Source of the DNA: Nanobdellota archaeon
Lineage (GTDB): Archaea > Nanobdellota > Nanobdellia > Parvarchaeales > Parvarchaeaceae
Direction: 5' to 3'
DNA length: 24,139 nt
Assembly: GCA_021818905.1 (NCBI GenBank)
Contig: JAKASS010000014.1
Span: 1-24,139 of the forward strand
Shown: one piece after another, positions 402-17,787 of the stretch
How the letters are laid out: the number at the start of each line of letters is the position of its first letter
Numbering within the stretch: the first letter of the stretch is position 1
Notes under the pieces: model-generated
The model's input: only the letters and a program-made list of their open reading frames with translations
Told to the model about the DNA's origin: nothing
Databases searched by the model: none
Position numbers and translations under genes: made by a program

Positions 402-496
402 TTTTATCAAACGCATGCACTTCATTATATTTACTATAACGAAGCAAGGGTCGATATGCGGTAAAACGCATATATGTGACTGTACAATTGCAAAAA
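402..496 (+). other. 23S leader: 5' strand of the interrupted rRNA processing stem
   Basis: Three blocks of the leader pair perfectly with the trailer: 402-414 with 3390-3402 (13 bp), 450-455 with 3383-3388 (6 bp) and 478-496 with 3364-3382 (19 bp). Between the blocks the 5' side carries extra sequence, including a hairpin with arms 454-460 and 467-473 (ATATGCG/CGCATAT, which overlaps the middle block by two bases, so the two may alternate). The trailer strand is nearly continuous, with one unpaired base at 3389. Such stems bracket archaeal 23S precursors and are cut to release the mature rRNA. Confidence 0.75.
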
Positions 497-3363
497 ACAC
501 CAAACTATTAGATGGATGACTAGGTTCAGGTGCCGAAGAAGGACGCAGCAAGTTGCGATAATGGCACGGTAAGTGCAGACGACTGTTGATCGTGCCGTTT
601 CTGAATGCGTGAAGCCTGCATGAAAGTGCAGATTCTCGGCGCAAGCCGAGAAAGGGAACCCAGGGAACTAAAACATTTTAGTACCTGGAGGAAAAGAAAT
701 CAATCGAGATTCCCCTAGTAATGGCGAACGAAAAGGGAAGAGGGCGAACCGAATCCGTAGCAATACGGAAATGTGGTGTGGTAAATGGCCGTAAGGATAA
801 GGACGAAGTCGACTGGAATGTCGCGTCAAAGAGAGTGACAGCCTCGTAGTCTTTTGAGATGCGGTCATCACGTAGAGTAGCAGAGGTCGATACTCTTCTG
901 CGAAGACGGGTGTCAAAAACATCCAACCCTAAATACAACCTGAAACCGATAGAGTATAGTAGCGTGAGCGAAAGTTGAAAAGCACTCTCGACGAGAGGAT
1001 GAAAAGAACCTGAAATCTAATAGTCATAGTTGTTGCGGCGCGTTGTGAACCTATGAATAAATAAATAGGCTCAAGTGTTGCAACATCCTTTTAGCATAAA
1101 GGGGCAGGGAGTTTACGAGTATGGCAAGGCTAACGAAAGGGAGCCGAAGCGAAAGCGAGCACATCTTCGGACGTGCCGGTAGGAAACTGCCGTTAGTCAT
1201 ATTTGTAAGACCCGAAGCCGGGCGATCTATACGTGCGCAGGGTGAAGTGGAGATTACTCTCCATGGAGGCCCGACAAGGTCGGTAACTACATCGTCTTTT
1301 GACGTGCGTATAGGGGCGAAAAACCAATCGTGCCCGGCGATAGCTGGTTCCCATCGAAATATCCCACAGGATAGCTTATGCTTTATTGTATTGGGGGTAC
1401 AGACACTGATCATGTAGGTAAGGACCGAAAGGTCCTACTACATTGTCAAACTCAGAATACCAATATACTACATGGCATAAGTTGGGTGTATGGCATAAAG
1501 TTTTACACCTCAAAGGAAAAAACCTAGCCTTGAGTTAAGGCCCCAAAATATCTACTAAGTGCAAAAAAGGGAAATCATATCTAAAACAGTTGGGAGGTAG
1601 GCTCAGAAGTGGCCATCCTTTAAAAAGTGTGTTACAACTTACCAACCCAGATATGGTGACCCGAAAATGGACGGGGCTAAGTAGATTGCCGAAACTCAAG
1701 ATCTTCACGCAAGTGAAGATGGTAGATGGGCGTGCCTACGGACTAGAAGCTTGTCCGTGAGGACAAGTGGATCTGTATGGTATTGAGAATCCTGCCAGGT
1801 GTAGCAAAGAAATAGGTGAGAATCCTATTCACCGCATGTGCAAGGGTTCCTTGTTTTAAGATTATCTAACAAGGGTTAGTCGGTCCTAAGTCTGGCGTCG
1901 AAAGGTGCCAGGCAAATGGGAATGCGTTTAATATTACGCAACCGCAGCTACTTTATCGTATAATACACATCGAGATATGCGGAGCGGTCCCGTCAGATCG
2001 TATATGGGTGCGTTGTGTTCGAGAGATATAATGTCGAGAAGACACAGAAGCGCTTATAATGTAGCAATACATTCGCAGAATCCTGGTGTTCATAAAAAGT
2101 TATATGTCACGAGTAGTGGCGACCGTACCGAAAACTGACACAGGTGCACTGGCTTAGTAGGCTAAGGTGAGGGATTTAAACCGTGTAAGGGAAATCGGCA
2201 ATTTAGTCCTGTAAGTTCGCAATAAAGGATCCCTGATCCGGTCTTAAAAGCGGGATCAGGGCGCAGTGACTCGGGGAGTCTAACTGTTTACTAAAGGCAT
2301 AGCTGACTGCTAGAGAGCAATCTTTTGTACAGTCGGCGACATCTGCCCAGCACTGGTATCCGAAAATCTGTTCCAACGGGTATAAGGACCAGCTAGCGGC
2401 GGAGGTAACTGTGACCTTCTTAAGCAAGCATAATCCATTGCCAATTGATTGTTGGCTTGTGAACGATGTAATGAGATTCCCACTGTCCCTACATGGAAAC
2501 CCGCGACACCACCGTCCTGGTGCAAAGGCCAGGGACCCCCACAGGGTCAAAAAGACCCCAGGAACTTTACTGCAATCTCTTGTTGCGGTATTAAGATGAT
2601 AGACATAGCGTAGGTAGGAGACATCATGCTTGTCGCTTCGGCGGCAAGATAGTCGAAAGTGTAACACTACCTTTATCGTCTTATACCGCTTACCTTCGGG
2701 AACAGCAGGAGACGGGCAGTTTTGCTGGGGTGGCAATCCCACGAAAAGATAACATGGGAGCCCAAAGGTCATCTTAAGTGGTATAGAAATCCACTGTTAA
2801 GTGCAATGGCAAAAGATGGCTTGACTGTGCGCTGCAATGCAAGGCGCGCAGAGGCGAAAGCCGGGCATAGCGAACACGAATGCGTGTATTTTTGACTCCT
2901 TCGTATGACAGAAAAGCTACCCTGGGCGTAAGAGAGTTGTTGCGGATGATAGTTCATATTGACTTCGCAGCTTGCTCCACAGTCTTTGGCTCTCCCCATC
3001 CTGGTTGCGCACAAACAACCAAGGGTAGAGGTGTTCACTCGTTAAAGGGGACCGTGAGCTGAGTTTAGGCCGCCGCGAGGCAGGCCGGTATTTAACTTGT
3101 GGGGGTGTTCGATGCGTGAATGGAAGATTCGACTAGTACGAAAGGAACAGCGAGTCGGCGTCTCTAGTTAGCGGCTATCTGACAAGGTACGCCGCGTAGC
3201 CACGCGCCAAGGGATAAGAGCTGAAGGCATCTAAGCTTGAAACCCTCCGTAAAAATACGCATCGTCATAGGTCGGGGAAGAAGACCCCGTTGATAGAATC
3301 GGGGTGTAAGAACTAAGGCGCAAGCCGAGGTTTTCAGCCCACGATTACTAATAAACCAAAAAC
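497..3363 (+). rRNA. rrl: 23S ribosomal RNA (divergent archaeal type)
   Basis: Recognised from successive conserved blocks: the domain I segment around 655-720 with the AAAGAAATCAA core, the GTPase-centre region near 1605-1650, the P-loop CTGGGGTGGCA near 2727, the A-loop near 3031, the 2585/2602 strand near 3054-3090 and the sarcin-ricin loop at 3134-3150. Length is about 2.87 kb, so I see no large intron. Ends are approximate and set by the processing stem. Several positions that are nearly invariant elsewhere differ here: by eye alignment to E. coli numbering, G2447C, A2448G, C2452G, A2503G, G2505C, G1930C, U1931A and G2661A. A2450, A2451, U2506, G2553, U2585 and A2602 are kept. Part of helix 89 appears re-paired (A2455/U2497, G2456/C2496), which argues for evolution under selection rather than free decay, but a degenerate copy cannot be excluded from this window. 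Confidence 0.93.
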
Positions 3364-3410
3364 TTTTTGCAATTGTACAGTCATCGACAGCGTTTGATAA
3401 AATTTTCATT
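3319..3410 (+). repeat. 23S 3'-end/trailer repeat, copy A (the genuine rRNA end)
   Basis: Covers the last roughly 45 nt of 23S plus the trailer. It aligns without gaps to copy B (5089-5180) over about 82 nt with roughly 85 percent identity by eye, starting at the shared CAAGCCGAGGTTTTCAGC and running through ATCGACAGCGTTTG. Copy C (4147-4290) shares only the trailer part. Confidence 0.85.
3364..3402 (+). other. 23S trailer: 3' strand of the processing stem
   Basis: This 39-nt stretch pairs along almost its whole length with the leader (blocks at 478-496, 450-455 and 402-414). The same sequence, with scattered changes, recurs at about 4147-4290 and 5135-5175, where no leader strand is found nearby. 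Confidence 0.75.
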
Positions 3411-3420
3411 TACCTAACCG

Positions 3421-3442
3421 TACCTATAAAATTTTATAGGTA
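3421..3442 (+). terminator. 22-bp perfect palindrome after the 23S trailer, possible terminator or operator
   Basis: The 11-nt half TACCTATAAAA is followed directly by its exact reverse complement, and then by GTTTGTCT. It lies 19 nt past the processing stem and 45 nt before the VapBC operator. As RNA it would form an AU-rich hairpin that could end the rRNA transcript. As DNA it could be a repressor site. The sequence alone does not decide. Confidence 0.35.
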
Positions 3443-3478
3443 GTTTGTCTAATTGCATAAGCTAATAAGTGGTAGCAA

Positions 3479-3526
3479 AGTATTTATATATACAGTCTGT
3501 ATATAGAATCTTATGAGGTCAAATTT
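3479..3526 (+). promoter_or_regulatory. VapBC promoter with palindromic operator and Shine-Dalgarno
   Basis: A 19-bp inverted repeat at 3487-3505 has perfect 9-nt arms (TATATACAG and CTGTATATA) around a single T, and overlaps a TATA-like stretch (3481-3490). GAGGTC at 3515-3520 is a ribosome binding site before the ATG at 3527. Antitoxins of this class usually repress their own operon through such sites, so autoregulation is the likely role. Confidence 0.65.
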
Positions 3527-3748
3527 ATGAAGACGGTGATGTTAAATGATGAAGTATATAACGCGCTATCCAAAATAAAGGGTAAGAAAAGTTTTAGTGA
3601 ACTACTCGAGGCGTTGCTTCTAAGCTCGGAGGATTATAAGACTAAACTTTTAGAGAGCGTAAAAGGGATAATAACAGCAGAAGAAGCAAGAGCAGCGGAA
3701 AAGGCAGTTAAAAGAATCCGGGAGCACGCCAAAGTTAGGGACTTATGA
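3527..3748 (+). CDS. vapB: VapB-type antitoxin
   Basis: A 73-residue protein beginning with a short beta-like MKTVMLNDEVYNALSKIKG, then a helical ELLEALLL segment and a charged helical tail. This is the layout of small archaeal VapB antitoxins, which bind DNA with the N-terminal part and cover the toxin active site with the tail. Its TGA stop overlaps the ATG of the downstream PIN-domain gene in an ATGA junction, so the two are translationally coupled. The start at 3527 follows a GAGGTC site and a palindromic operator. Family assignment rests on size, shape and neighbour. It sits between two copies of the 23S trailer repeat. Confidence 0.8.
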   Translation: MKTVMLNDEVYNALSKIKGKKSFSELLEALLLSSEDYKTKLLESVKGIITAEEARAAEKAVKRIREHAKVRDL

Positions 3749-4128
3749 ATGTTTTATTAGATACTTCGGTAATCATCGAACAATTGAAAGGTAATGAAAA
3801 GATCAATAATTTGATAACAGCGAATGAAAGTAATAATGTTAGTGTATTGAGTGTCTATGAAACTCTTGTTGGGATAAAAGATAAGGCCAAAAGACTGAAG
3901 GTTGAACGATTTTTTGAAGCATTTCCATTACTAGGATTTTCAGCGATAGACGCAGCCGAGGCCGCCAAAATTCATGAATTATTGGCTTCAAAGGGCAGCT
4001 TAATAAACACGATGGATATGCTACTTGCAGCCCAGGCGGCAAATAGAAATTTAACGATCTTGACTAAAGATAGGGATTTTATTAAGGTAAGAGATATCTT
4101 CGGGATCAATTCTGTAATAATCGATTAA
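3745..4128 (+). CDS. vapC: VapC-type PIN-domain ribonuclease toxin
   Basis: At 127 residues it has a normal length for VapC. The PIN-domain acidic residues are in place: D6 in the opening LLDTSVIIE, E39 in SVYETLVG, D91 in MDMLLAAQA, and D109/D111 in TKDRDF. PIN toxins are magnesium-dependent endoribonucleases; known VapCs cut tRNAs or the sarcin-ricin loop of 23S rRNA. The target here is unknown, but the position right behind a 23S gene with a changed sarcin-ricin tetraloop is suggestive. It overlaps vapB by 4 bp and appears intact. Confidence 0.9.
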   Translation: MNVLLDTSVIIEQLKGNEKINNLITANESNNVSVLSVYETLVGIKDKAKRLKVERFFEAFPLLGFSAIDAAEAAKIHELLASKGSLINTMDMLLAAQAANRNLTILTKDRDFIKVRDIFGINSVIID

Positions 4129-4146
4129 AAACTAGACTATATAAGT

Positions 4147-4290
4147 TTGCAATCGTACGGTACGCGTGTGCATGACTGTCTTGTAGCGCGACTAGATACT
4201 CATCAAAATCGCCCCGTTCCTGCACATAAAGTAGGAAATGGGGAGTCATGTACAAGCGTAATCGTACGGCCATCGACAGCGTTTGATATT
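4147..4290 (+). repeat. 23S trailer repeat, copy C, split by a MITE
   Basis: TTTGCAATCGTACGG (4147-4160) and CCATCGACAGCGTTTGAT (4270-4287) join into one trailer-like sequence once the 99-bp insert and one copy of its target duplication are removed. The result resembles copy B more than copy A (both have ATCG.ACGGCC where A has ATTGTACAGTC). It lacks the 23S-coding part found in copies A and B. It lies between the VapBC and MNT/HEPN cassettes. Confidence 0.75.
4161..4259 (+). mobile_element. MITE of about 99 bp with 15-bp imperfect inverted ends
   Basis: The ends ACGCGTGTGCATGAC (4162-4176) and GTCATGTACAAGCGT (4245-4259) are inverted repeats matching at 13 of 15 positions. The 10-bp sequence AATCGTACGG flanks the element directly on both sides (4151-4160 and 4260-4269), a target-site duplication. 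Its left roughly 65 bp are nearly identical to the left end of the IS remnant at 9840, so it is a non-autonomous relative. It encodes no transposase. Confidence 0.8.
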
Positions 4291-4303
4291 TTAAAGAGTC
4301 GCA

Positions 4304-4636
4304 TTACTTTTGTAGTTTTTTTATTTTTGTTTTTATTTGCGGCAAGATAATGTTTATTACGCCCCAGACCGCGTCGAGGTCTACTGCAAAGTATTGATGG
4401 ACCAAAATATCACGCACTCCCGCCAATTCCTTCCAATTTACATCCCTATGACCGTCTCTAAATCCTTGGGACAGGTTCTTCGTGGCTTCACCGATCACAG
4501 TAAGTGATCTCAAGACAGCATTGATCTTTTCTTTATTTTTTATAAAACTTTCTTTGGATAAGTCCTTTGTACAGTTCTCAATGTCGTCTATGCTCTCAAG
4601 TATGTGCCTTACGAATTCAAAATCGTCTTTTTTCAT
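4304..4636 (-). CDS. hepT: HEPN-domain toxin, HepT type
   Basis: A 110-residue all-helical protein starting MKKDDFEFVRH. It has the HEPN RNase signature R-x4-H-x-Y at R75, H80 and Y82 (RDILVHQY). In HepT/MntA pairs the HEPN protein is an RNase, and the partner MNT protein adds AMP to the tyrosine of this motif. The start at 4636 forms an ATGA overlap with the stop of the upstream MNT gene. A longer open frame to 4690 would run inside MNT and is unlikely. All motif residues are present, so the toxin looks active. Confidence 0.88.
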   Translation of the reverse strand: MKKDDFEFVRHILESIDDIENCTKDLSKESFIKNKEKINAVLRSLTVIGEATKNLSQGFRDGHRDVNWKELAGVRDILVHQYFAVDLDAVWGVINIILPQIKTKIKKLQK

Positions 4637-5046
4637 ATAATCATTATTTCGTCGTTCAGTATACTTTGTTTTATGTGCGGATCCATCCATTTGTAGCTGA
4701 CTAGGTCTACTTTGCGCCCGAACGCTTCTTCTAGTTCAATATGCAGATCAACGACTTTGTATGCCATTTTTTCATCATCGAATTCTATAAGCAGGTCGAT
4801 GTCGCTATCGGTTTTGGCTTCTCCCCTAGCAAAGGAACCGAATAAACCGGCCCTTTTTACGCCATATTTTTTAAGTATAGGTATTGCAATGTCTTTTATT
4901 TCATTTAAATTCGGGATAGTCTTTATTCTCTGCCGACCATTTTTTATCAAGTCCAATATCACTTCTTCAAATGGTTCTCTTCTATGTATTTTTAACCCGG
5001 CAAGCAAAGACTTCGTTTTCGTGCTTACCTTTATTGTGCTAATCAT
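4633..5046 (-). CDS. mntA: MNT-domain antitoxin (MntA type) with an N-terminal VapB/RHH-like segment
   Basis: A 137-residue protein. Residues about 1-40 (MISTIKVSTKTKSLLAGLK onward) look like a small ribbon-helix-helix or VapB-type DNA-binding segment. Residues about 55-135 form a minimal nucleotidyltransferase with the G-S-x10-D-x-D motif at G70-S71-D82-D84 and a probable third acid at D114. In characterised pairs MntA inactivates HepT by AMPylation. I place the start at 5046 rather than 5115 because a TATA box lies about 26 nt upstream and an 18-bp palindrome abuts this ATG. The extra upstream residues would be read from the promoter and the rRNA repeat. The gene overlaps hepT by 4 bp. Confidence 0.85.
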   Translation of the reverse strand: MISTIKVSTKTKSLLAGLKIHRREPFEEVILDLIKNGRQRIKTIPNLNEIKDIAIPILKKYGVKRAGLFGSFARGEAKTDSDIDLLIEFDDEKMAYKVVDLHIELEEAFGRKVDLVSYKWMDPHIKQSILNDEIMII

Positions 5047-5076
5047 GGTATACTGTAGTATACCATAGTATAAATA
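5047..5076 (-). promoter_or_regulatory. mntA-hepT leaderless promoter with 18-bp operator
   Basis: GGTATACT-GT-AGTATACC at 5047-5064 is a perfect palindrome with 8-nt arms directly before the ATG of mntA on the minus strand. The TATA-like TTTATACT (about 5066-5074) is centred near 26 nt upstream of that ATG, so the transcript is probably leaderless and the operator fills the space between TATA box and start. Binding there by the antitoxin would block initiation. Confidence 0.65.
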
Positions 5077-5088
5077 CTTTATTGCGAT

Positions 5089-5180
5089 GCACAAGCCGAG
5101 GTTTTCAGCGCACAATCGCTAATCAGCCAAGGCTTTTTTGCAATCGCACGGCCATCGACAGCGTTTGGTAAATTTTTATT
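5089..5180 (+). repeat. 23S 3'-end/trailer repeat, copy B
   Basis: Starts GCACAAGCCGAGGTTTTCAG and runs through TTTTTGCAATCGCACGG and CCATCGACAGCGTTTGG. It matches the last roughly 45 nt of the 23S rRNA and its trailer (copy A), with scattered substitutions and no gaps over about 82 nt. It is not preceded by any more 23S sequence: bases just before it are the mntA promoter. It cannot be a second rRNA gene, only a detached 3' end. Confidence 0.85.
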
Positions 5181-5299
5181 GGTCTAGTCGTACTTATGCG
5201 GATTTTTGGATCACTCGGAGAGAGTACGAAGCAAAAGTTTTGGGACGGCATGAAACATAATAAGAATATAAATAGTATTCCCACATTACTATTTGAATC

Positions 5300-5698
5300 A
5301 TGGAAAGACATTTGGACGATCTGGAGCTCTTCTTAGAAGCATGCGAGCACCCAGTAAACTTGGATGATGAGCATGCGGGGTATAGCGTAATGCTGGACTT
5401 TGCCGGGCTAAAGACGAGAGCCGGTAAACCCAGAATGGTCTATAGACTATACAATAGAGAAAAACTTACCGAAAAACTACTTCAGAAAGGCGGTTTGGAA
5501 AAAGAGCTGAGGGGGATAATAAAAGAGGTTTACGAGCAGGAGATGCCCGACTTGGAAGTAGAAATAAAAGCGCCGAATGAATATGCTGCTTACATATTGG
5601 GGCGGGGGCTTCTCGATTTAAACGCAGCGTATGGTGCCAGGTCAAGAAAGGCGAATATAGCTAAGGACATGATAGTGAACGTTCTGGACTCTTTATAA
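5300..5698 (+). CDS. Small soluble protein of unknown function
   Basis: A 132-residue protein I do not recognise. It is acidic at the N-terminus (MERHLDDLELFLEACEHP), contains a GYSVMLDFAGLKTRAGKPRM segment and is predicted mainly helical afterwards, with no signal peptide, membrane segment or metal motif. A TATA-like AATATAAATAG (5266-5276) lies about 27 nt before the ATG, which suggests a leaderless transcript and supports the chosen start. It stands alone between rRNA repeat copy B and the convergent VKOR gene. Confidence 0.7.
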   Translation: MERHLDDLELFLEACEHPVNLDDEHAGYSVMLDFAGLKTRAGKPRMVYRLYNREKLTEKLLQKGGLEKELRGIIKEVYEQEMPDLEVEIKAPNEYAAYILGRGLLDLNAAYGARSRKANIAKDMIVNVLDSL

Positions 5699-5722: not shown

Positions 5723-6184
5723 TTATAGATCTTTTCTTAATAAATATGCGGAGATAGCCAGCATCGCAAATATGGAGGCGTGTCCGGTCGTGCAAAGCAA
5801 GCATATGGAGCCTATCTTGAAAATTTCAAGATAAATCAGATAAAACGCCGTGGCCGCGCCAAGCAAAGACAAAGTAAATATCGCGTATAGGAAATACCTT
5901 GTCTTTTTGTTTTTAATAAAAAACGCATAGATACCAGAAAGCGCAAACATGACCGAAAAGAAGACGATGCCGTAATCGTATAAGTTTATCCCGAATAAAG
6001 TCGAATACGGACTCGCTATGACTTTACCACAGTCTACTGCGGTATTATATATGCTGCAAGAATTTTGCGGTATTACATTAAAACCGAATGATAACGAAAG
6101 ATAGACCATCGCGCCGATCCCCAATGCGCTAAAAGCAATCAAAAGATAACGATACAGCCTATAATCTTTTTTGATTTTCTCCAT
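5723..6184 (-). CDS. VKOR-family membrane thiol oxidoreductase
   Basis: A 153-residue membrane protein with four helices (about 12-32, 70-90, 97-120, 125-148). It has the four VKOR cysteines: the loop pair C43 and C52, and the active-site pair C128-x-x-C131 (CLLC). Prokaryotic VKOR homologues reoxidise a periplasmic thioredoxin-like protein and pass electrons to quinone, driving disulfide formation in secreted proteins. That fits the cysteine-rich exported proteins encoded about 1-4 kb away. No thioredoxin domain is fused here. It starts 12 nt after the end of TBP, so the two may be cotranscribed. Confidence 0.88.
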   Translation of the reverse strand: MEKIKKDYRLYRYLLIAFSALGIGAMVYLSLSFGFNVIPQNSCSIYNTAVDCGKVIASPYSTLFGINLYDYGIVFFSVMFALSGIYAFFIKNKKTRYFLYAIFTLSLLGAATAFYLIYLEIFKIGSICLLCTTGHASIFAMLAISAYLLRKDL

Positions 6185-6196
6185 GCGTAAAAAGAC

Positions 6197-6730
6197 TTAG
6201 CCCTTTTTGTTTATCGCAGAAACCAAGACTTTTATTGCGGCGTCTATCTCGGCTATGTTTTTAGCGCCGGTGCATACTATTTTACCGGTCCCGAACAGGA
6301 GAAAGGTTATCTTTGAATTGACTAATTTGTATACCAAGCCAGGGAACTGTTCAGGGTTATATTCGGTCTCGTCTATGGCATATGCTATCTTGTTTAGATC
6401 TAGTGGTCTGTTCAGGTTACCACTGGCGACGATGTTCTGTATCTCGATCTTCCAACCGGGTTTCACCCGCACCTTTATCTTTTTCAGTTCTTTAATGAGC
6501 GGGACCATAGCATTGTTTATATCATTTCTGGATCTCCCGCCAGTGCATACGAGCTTCCCGCTGCCGAAAACAAGAAAAGTCACATGTAAGTCGGTCAATC
6601 TAAAAACCAACCCGGGGAACTGTTCAGGGTTATATTGCGTGTTAGGCAGCTTCTTCAGTTTTTTTAGCGGGATAGGAACTTTAAGCGATATGCTTGCGAC
6701 GATATTTTCGACTTTATAAAGTTTTGCCAT
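6197..6730 (-). CDS. tbp: TATA-box binding protein (TBP)
   Basis: A 177-residue protein made of two direct repeats. Each runs from an NIVAS motif through YNPEQFPGLV and a TFLVFGSGK/TFLLFGTGK strand to VCTG (about residues 9-80 and 99-172). This is the complete saddle fold of TBP, which binds the promoter TATA box and recruits TFB and RNA polymerase. Conservation between the two halves is high, as usual in archaea. On the minus strand the ATG is preceded by AGGTGATAAGGGAGT, a plausible ribosome binding region, and by CTATAAATATT (about 6752-6762). Confidence 0.97.
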   Translation of the reverse strand: MAKLYKVENIVASISLKVPIPLKKLKKLPNTQYNPEQFPGLVFRLTDLHVTFLVFGSGKLVCTGGRSRNDINNAMVPLIKELKKIKVRVKPGWKIEIQNIVASGNLNRPLDLNKIAYAIDETEYNPEQFPGLVYKLVNSKITFLLFGTGKIVCTGAKNIAEIDAAIKVLVSAINKKG

Positions 6731-9832: not shown

Positions 9833-9839
9833 TGTATTA

Positions 9840-10031
9840 GGCGTGTGCATGACTGTCTTGTAGCGCGACTAGATACTATCAAAATTGACCCGTTCCTGCA
9901 CATGATGATAAAAGCTAAATTTGGCGATATCGTTAGAAGCAAGGACAAGACTGCACAAGTAAACGAGGTCTTGTTAAAAGTCCTTTGCCACAACATCGTT
10001 GTCCTATACAATCGATGTATTGCACAACGCC
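9840..10031 (+). mobile_element. Internally deleted insertion sequence
   Basis: The left end GGCGTGTGCATGACTG and the right end GTATTGCACAACGCC (10017-10031) are imperfect inverted repeats. The first roughly 64 bp are almost identical to the left part of the MITE at 4161. They are joined to the C-terminal coding end of a DDE transposase. I see no clear target duplication, so the insertion is old or was followed by rearrangement. At 192 bp it cannot encode a whole transposase. Confidence 0.75.
9902..10016 (+). pseudogene. Transposase C-terminal fragment
   Basis: Reads MMIKAKFGDIVRSKDKTAQ then VNEVLLKVLCHNIVVL. This is the typical end of IS4/IS5-superfamily DDE transposases, in which a basic K-x-x-FG stretch follows the catalytic glutamate and the sequence ends in a K-x-L-x-HN-x-x-x-L helix. 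Everything before it, including the catalytic region, is missing. The frame runs on through the terminal repeat into unrelated sequence. Confidence 0.7.
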
Positions 10032-17700: not shown

Positions 17701-17787
17701 GGCCGCGATAGTTTAGCTCGGTAGAACAATAGGCTGTGGCTGAAAAGCAGAACCCTGTAAACGGGGGTCCAAATCCCTCTCGCGGCC
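17701..17787 (+). tRNA. tRNA-His (GUG) with a 13-nt intron
   Basis: The encoded G-1 (17701) pairs with C73 (17787), the tRNA-His identity pair, on top of a perfect 7-bp acceptor stem (GCCGCGA/TCGCGGC). The D arm is GTTT/GAAC, the anticodon stem ATAGG/CCTGT after intron removal, and the T stem GGGGG/CCCTC around TCCAAAT. Anticodon GTG is at 17736-17738. CCA is not encoded. TTATTTATG at about 17667-17675 is a likely promoter TATA box. Confidence 0.92.
17740..17752 (+). other. 13-nt tRNA intron at position 37/38
   Basis: The intron CTGAAAAGCAGAA makes a compact bulge-helix-bulge with the anticodon loop. C32-U35 (CTGT) pairs with intron GCAG to form the 4-bp central helix, flanked by 3-nt bulges GG|C and AA|C cut after their second base. 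This is the canonical archaeal position for splicing by the tRNA endonuclease. Confidence 0.8.

Follow-up and report, generated by a model that had tools for sequence, protein, structure and literature searches.

Duplicated 23S rRNA gene tails around toxin-antitoxin cassettes suggest integrase-free gene capture in an archaeon of the Parvarchaeum group

Homology-facilitated illegitimate recombination and template switching insert DNA while duplicating tens to hundreds of base pairs of the target, and they need no dedicated enzyme. Tandem accretion of cis-mobilizable elements (CIMEs) at gene 3' ends leaves cassettes free of recombination genes between copies of the target gene end (PMC5704250), and archaeal integrons, including clusters of attC sites lacking an integron integrase (CALINs), form arrays of small cassettes with repeats, some of them in DPANN archaea (PMC9668308). 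Toxin-antitoxin (TA) modules such as VapBC and MNT-HEPN are described as two-gene mobile units of patchy distribution that are exchanged between genomes (PMC2701414). Such modules encode no mobility functions, and how they move is an old question. Here we analyzed a stretch of 24,139 nucleotides (the window), contig 9 of a 945-kb, 25-contig draft genome (G000), in which VapBC and HEPN-MNT modules alternate with copies of the 3' end of the 23S rRNA gene. The arrangement resembles CIME arrays in its recombination-gene-free cassettes between target-end copies, and integrons and CALINs in its small cassettes with repeats. By TBP identity (97%, 94%, 89% and lower), the closest relatives are metagenome-assembled genomes (MAGs) named Candidatus Parvarchaeota or Nanoarchaeota, i.e., the Parvarchaeum group, and the host is a tiny, acid-loving archaeon; all genomes compared are draft MAGs. 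Our analysis leans towards recombinase-independent gene capture with duplication of the target, and away from a dedicated landing site in the 23S gene, as the origin of the array.

The 23S rRNA gene of the window is a complete archaeal gene (488..3371, plus strand; Rfam RF02540, 2292 bits) and the sole intact 23S gene found in G000. Its true tail, the trailer (3365-3402) and a downstream segment constitute copy 1 (3318..3427, plus strand). Copy 3 (5089..5197, plus strand) duplicates the last ~45 nt of the gene together with the trailer and downstream segment, aligning to copy 1 with 78% identity over 110 columns (E 7e-21; best local score 60, with none of 300 shuffles exceeding 19). The two are homologous on both arms, from -45 to +65, beyond any core. 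Copy 2 (4146..4288, plus strand) is a shorter trailer copy with a match of ~36 nt and 2-3 differences, whose 29-nt core has an E of 6e-5 and whose score of 23 exceeds the shuffle maximum of 16; it possibly extends further left, as faintly hinted by the vapC stop codon lying within a 23S-like CGATTA. Searching G000 with the 23S end returned copies 1 and 3 only. Copy 2 is interrupted by a 100-bp element (4161..4260, no strand assigned) with terminal inverted repeats (TACGC...GCGTA), flanked by a 9-bp target duplication, ATCGTACGG (4152-4160 and 4261-4269). It has matches at five other places in the genome (six clear in all), a second place in the window, at 9838-9903, being partial, and clean 9-bp duplications at three full-length copies, the one in copy 2 included. 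Inverted repeats, a fixed target duplication and several copies make it a miniature inverted-repeat transposable element (MITE). The alignment of copies 1 and 3, the score of copy 2 above its shuffle maximum and the MITE with its 9-bp duplication bear out the three tail and trailer copies of the original prediction.

The repeated segment combines the 23S tail with the 3' strand of the 23S processing stem. Co-folding with copy 1 identifies the leader (406..496, plus strand; ATCAAACGC at 406-414, GTCGAT at 450-455 and GACTGTACAATTGCAAAAA at 478-496) as the 5' strand, which forms a long stem with the copy 1 trailer; its inner part, 478-496, pairs without mismatch. The pairing of copy 2 with the leader contains two A/C mismatches and that of copy 3 three, plus one G-U pair each. 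Matched own leader and trailer pairs are also present in seven relatives whose contigs span both 23S ends; in other archaea, the 16S and 23S processing stems contain bulge-helix-bulge motifs at which the splicing endonuclease cuts (PMC7714728). All three copies share an identical 15-nt block, ATCGACAGCGTTTG, which is the outer part of the stem and occurs exactly three times in the genome. Copy 3 deviates at 5 of the 26 columns that are invariant among 24 true 23S ends and is therefore not a functional 23S end. Separate from the processing stem, window positions 406-480 hold a leader hairpin (GCACTTCnTTATA...GAAG..AAG.GTC) conserved in nearly all relatives in which the leader was read.

Between the copies lie two discrete cassettes, as originally predicted and as confirmed by Pfam, each an overlapping antitoxin and toxin gene pair whose TA function is assigned from its domains. 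The VapBC cassette (3477..4122, plus strand) comprises vapB (3527..3748, plus strand; PF02697, E 2e-15) and the PIN toxin gene vapC (3745..4128, plus strand; PF01850, E 9e-14). The HEPN-MNT cassette (4299..5080, minus strand) comprises a HepT-like HEPN toxin with an RDILVH motif (4304..4636, minus strand; PF01934, E 6e-25; start codon picked by inspection) and an MNT nucleotidyltransferase antitoxin with a GSX10DXD motif (4633..5049, minus strand; PF18765/PF01909). The cassettes belong to unrelated TA families and only the tails are repeated, which speaks against tandem duplication of the whole region. Cassette limits are those of blastn homology to a distant congener, G014, in which the homologues occupy two unrelated loci, VapBC on C27 (78% DNA identity) and HEPN-MNT on C1 (75%). 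At the protein level MNT is 81% and VapC 77% identical between the two genomes, compared with 59% for IleRS. The outer ends of the homologous DNA lie roughly 8-50 nt from the repeat copies; because homology stops so near to them, the mobile unit is little more than a promoter and two genes. VapBC of G014 itself lies between direct repeats of a promoter sequence, 26 bp long (30 bp when extended), with exactly two occurrences in that genome; the PpiC-ABC gene order around it is not conserved in relatives, so that the pre-insertion state of this locus is not demonstrable. No relatives of the MNT gene were found among viral contigs.

The original prediction implied that related genomes would carry the 23S flank with and without cassettes, and both states occur. 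In nine genus members (G001, G005, G009, G010, G011, G017, G018, G020 and G026) the site is empty, with the VKOR stop codon ~80-250 nt past the 23S gene and the conserved VKOR and TBP genes (5723..6730, minus strand, in the window) following directly. At eight sites, that of the window included, 0.5-2.3 kb of unrelated DNA separates 23S and VKOR. Nine empty sites against eight occupied by unrelated cargo identify the gap as an insertion site. By names read from the sequences rather than from a family search, the cargo outside the window consists of an MFS transporter (G013), a small unknown and a DUF218-like gene (G004), DUF4143-type ATPases (G003 and G014), TnpB (G025), an unknown gene (G006), and a phosphatase-like gene with another (G023); the window has its two TA modules and an accessory open reading frame. 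With an MFS transporter, DUF4143-type ATPases and TnpB among the cargo, retention through addiction to a toxin, as once suggested, is not needed to account for the site. In VKOR, TBP and IleRS the window falls with G013, and with G004 where that genome has the gene, which marks the downstream flank as native; VKOR was accordingly dismissed as a sign of foreign downstream DNA, its grouping being the one expected under vertical descent. For the closest sister genome, G378, the contig (L217, G378:C35:1-476) begins at the VKOR stop codon without a 23S match and is uninformative on the site.

G014 provides an independent second insertion at the same place with a duplicated 23S tail. Just before VKOR (L099), the tail and trailer of this genome's 23S gene recur (-33 to +31, 65 nt, 80% identity, z 17 against shuffles), at roughly +1449 to +1513 relative to the end of the gene and behind the DUF4143-type ATPase, so the cargo is not TA. 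This copy is best preserved at AATCGGCCAAAATTTTCGTAAATCA, which covers the very end of 23S and the inner stem; in the window, by contrast, the identical stretch is the outer-stem ATCGACAGCGTTTG. In G001 and G003, the 23S end also had weak second matches; these resemble the coding sequence of a CsaA-like gene and were rejected as tail copies.

Comparable scars were seen around TA modules at other targets. We scanned HEPN-MNT and VapC loci of the class, selected irrespective of repeats, and counted a locus as bracketed when direct repeats with E up to 1e-4 were spaced by up to 2.5 kb. HEPN-MNT modules were bracketed, often by gene 3' ends, at 4/20 and 5/20 loci in two sets (9/40 together), compared with 26/626 control positions (combined p 9e-5); the final thresholds were fixed after the first set, making the second the fairer test (p 0.002). 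Repeats of 85-130 bp derived from neighboring gene ends, promoters or intergenic sequence surround HEPN-MNT at L332, L331, L265, L232 and L271. Those of L332 (125 bp, 90%) and L331 (105 bp, 91%) hold the 3' end of the upstream gene, that of L265 corresponds to the 5' region of the gene downstream, and that of L232, from an earlier scan, is the end of a surface-protein gene. At L230 (G297:C42:15000-21847), five TA modules on one strand alternate with 3'-end copies of one protein gene (...GPSAVENWNLYE*), one of which is split by a MITE-looking insertion with the target duplication CGAGTGATTG; transposase genes lie inside and alongside this array. L110, L163 and L145, which came up in the first flank-repeat scan, were discarded as artefacts caused by the self-overlap of truncated loci.

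Taken together, these observations would be explained if the three copies are the scars of two captures in the small interval that separates 23S from VKOR. In each event, a bare TA cassette (promoter and two genes) would have been inserted with duplication of the target, comprising the 23S tail and the stem's 3' strand, leaving the rRNA gene intact while the other tail copy started to decay. Selection would retain insertions that leave the interrupted gene intact, and the same process would also strike other targets, such as promoters and the ends of protein genes. The most likely route, without a dedicated integrase, is template switching or homology-facilitated illegitimate recombination involving imported DNA, carried out by the machinery of DNA repair or replication. 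We favor such capture because no recombinase was detected, homology is two-sided, the identical blocks differ between the window and G014, and scars exist at other targets. Within the 945-kb G000 assembly, the one genome searched for recombinases, neither PF00589 nor PF00239 had a match, while controls were matched in 14/14 and 10/14 genomes; the absence of an integrase first noted for the window thus holds across the assembly. Recurrence at one site need not imply site-specificity, since any duplication of ~100 bp in a gap of 80-250 nt would carry the 23S tail. The length of archaeal Okazaki fragments was considered as a source of the ~100-bp duplications and is not claimed here, control repeats having similar lengths.

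Several observations weigh against this reading. Three substitutions are common to copies 2 and 3 but absent from copy 1, a poor fit to a simple order of two insertions; the geometry of the copies suggests that HEPN-MNT was inserted first, and the shared substitutions leave the order conflicting. No second tail copy was detected at five occupied 23S sites (G013, G004, G006, G023 and G025), and only an insignificant one at that of G003; displaced copies at these sites may have decayed, or the insertions may have made none. VapC modules picked irrespective of repeats showed no excess, with 0/20 bracketed. The controls of the scan are contig starts of the same genomes, which may vary less than TA-rich regions, and their repeats are similarly long. 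Finally, the G297 array reuses one junction, which looks more site-specific.

The last point leaves a sizeable share of the probability to the main alternative, which we consider less likely: CIME-like accretion, in which each of several site-specific integrative elements entered at the 3' end of 23S and restored the tail, and the integrase was later lost, leaving TA cargo between att sites. Gene-end copies alternate with cassettes, the 15-nt block is identical in three copies, five cassettes share one junction in G297, and bacteria do possess tandem decayed elements with retained att sites (PMC5704250). However, copies 1 and 3 are homologous in both arms over 110 nt, G014 has its identical block in another part of the tail, the cassettes contain only TA genes, and the 15-nt block doubles as a pairing segment of the rRNA stem. 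The lack of a detected tyrosine or serine recombinase in G000 also counts against accretion, although a decayed CIME could have lost one. The original prediction had treated the 23S 3' end as a landing site with ATCGACAGCGTTTG as its core. Capture at this end is upheld by the nine empty sites, the cassette homologues in G014 and the second insertion there, but the dedicated core is not: the preserved block differs in G014, no recombinase gene was found in G000, both arms are homologous, and scars are found at promoters and at 3' ends of protein genes.

Alternatively, the whole array could have been made in a related strain and brought in by homologous recombination via the 23S gene, copies 2 and 3 being donor tails; the donor would have had a AATCGCACGGCC trailer and a matching leader. 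Copies 2 and 3 do have AATCG.ACGGCC in common, which departs from the host stem, many relatives share the CAGCGCAC and TAATCAGCC retained in copy 3, and the TA modules are common to the window and the distant G014. We nevertheless regard import as improbable, as the ATCGACAG insertion of copies 2 and 3 is found otherwise only in the window's close lineage (as a variant in G004), copy 3 violates invariant 23S positions, and the downstream VKOR and TBP genes were inherited vertically. Import would in any case shift the origin elsewhere and leave it unexplained.

That the copies are functional RNA or regulatory elements, such as terminators or decoys of the processing stem, retained as such, is very improbable. 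The 23S-derived half of copy 3 (5089-5142) folds into a hairpin of -18.3 kcal/mol (z -3.8, compared with 0.3 for the true tail) before a T6 run, several of the changes from copy 1 to copy 3 add base pairs to it, and on this folding it may have become a terminator. However, a terminator scan did not flag copy 3, copies 2 and 3 pair worse with the leader than copy 1 does, the genome holds no further copy, and such a function could account for retention but not for origin. An assembly artefact or chimera of strain variants, conceivable in a 25-contig draft, is least credible of all, given that copy 3 is the functional 23S end of no strain, the MITE in copy 2 has a target duplication of its own, synteny in the flanks is native, and the same architecture is seen independently in G014.

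Two further features of the window complete the picture. Situated between copy 3 and VKOR, ORF5300 (5300..5698, plus strand; 132 aa) has no Pfam match; it is the third accessory gene at the 23S-VKOR site, and its sole relative in the genus is in G019 (40%). At 17702-17787, Rfam detects an 86-nt tRNA that ARAGORN misses; it is perhaps intron-containing or otherwise unusual.

Recombinase-independent capture may extend beyond this locus. We tentatively raise the idea, with somewhat less than even confidence, that DPANN archaea harbor a previously undescribed integrase-free capture of bare TA and other cassettes with target duplications of ~65-130 bp, whose recurrence at one gene end would yield TA arrays, including at the 23S 3' end with its processing stem. 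A visible scar, the target duplication, marks the limits of the mobile unit, is indicative of a repair-like mechanism and allows counting across genomes; the rRNA case shows that an insertion can duplicate the 3' end of a single-copy essential rRNA gene, along with its processing stem, while function is preserved. Compared with CIMEs (PMC5704250), the window differs in the lack of a recombinase in its genome, arms homologous over ~110 nt, no core common to the cases, TA-only cargo and an rRNA tail as target. Unlike integrons and CALINs (PMC9668308), its genome has no PF00589 and its repeats are pieces of a host gene; matches to the attC R'/R'' motifs GTTRRRY/RYYYAAC, by motif matching, fall outside the copies. 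Illegitimate recombination and template switching share the insertion with duplication seen here; in DPANN archaea this would be a candidate route, and its recurrent use by TA modules would be new. The closest parallel in cargo is the exchange of VapBC and MNT-HEPN modules (PMC2701414), mirrored here in their high identity to a distant relative; the passages of that account considered here name no insertion scar or target, whereas at the window the scar is visible.

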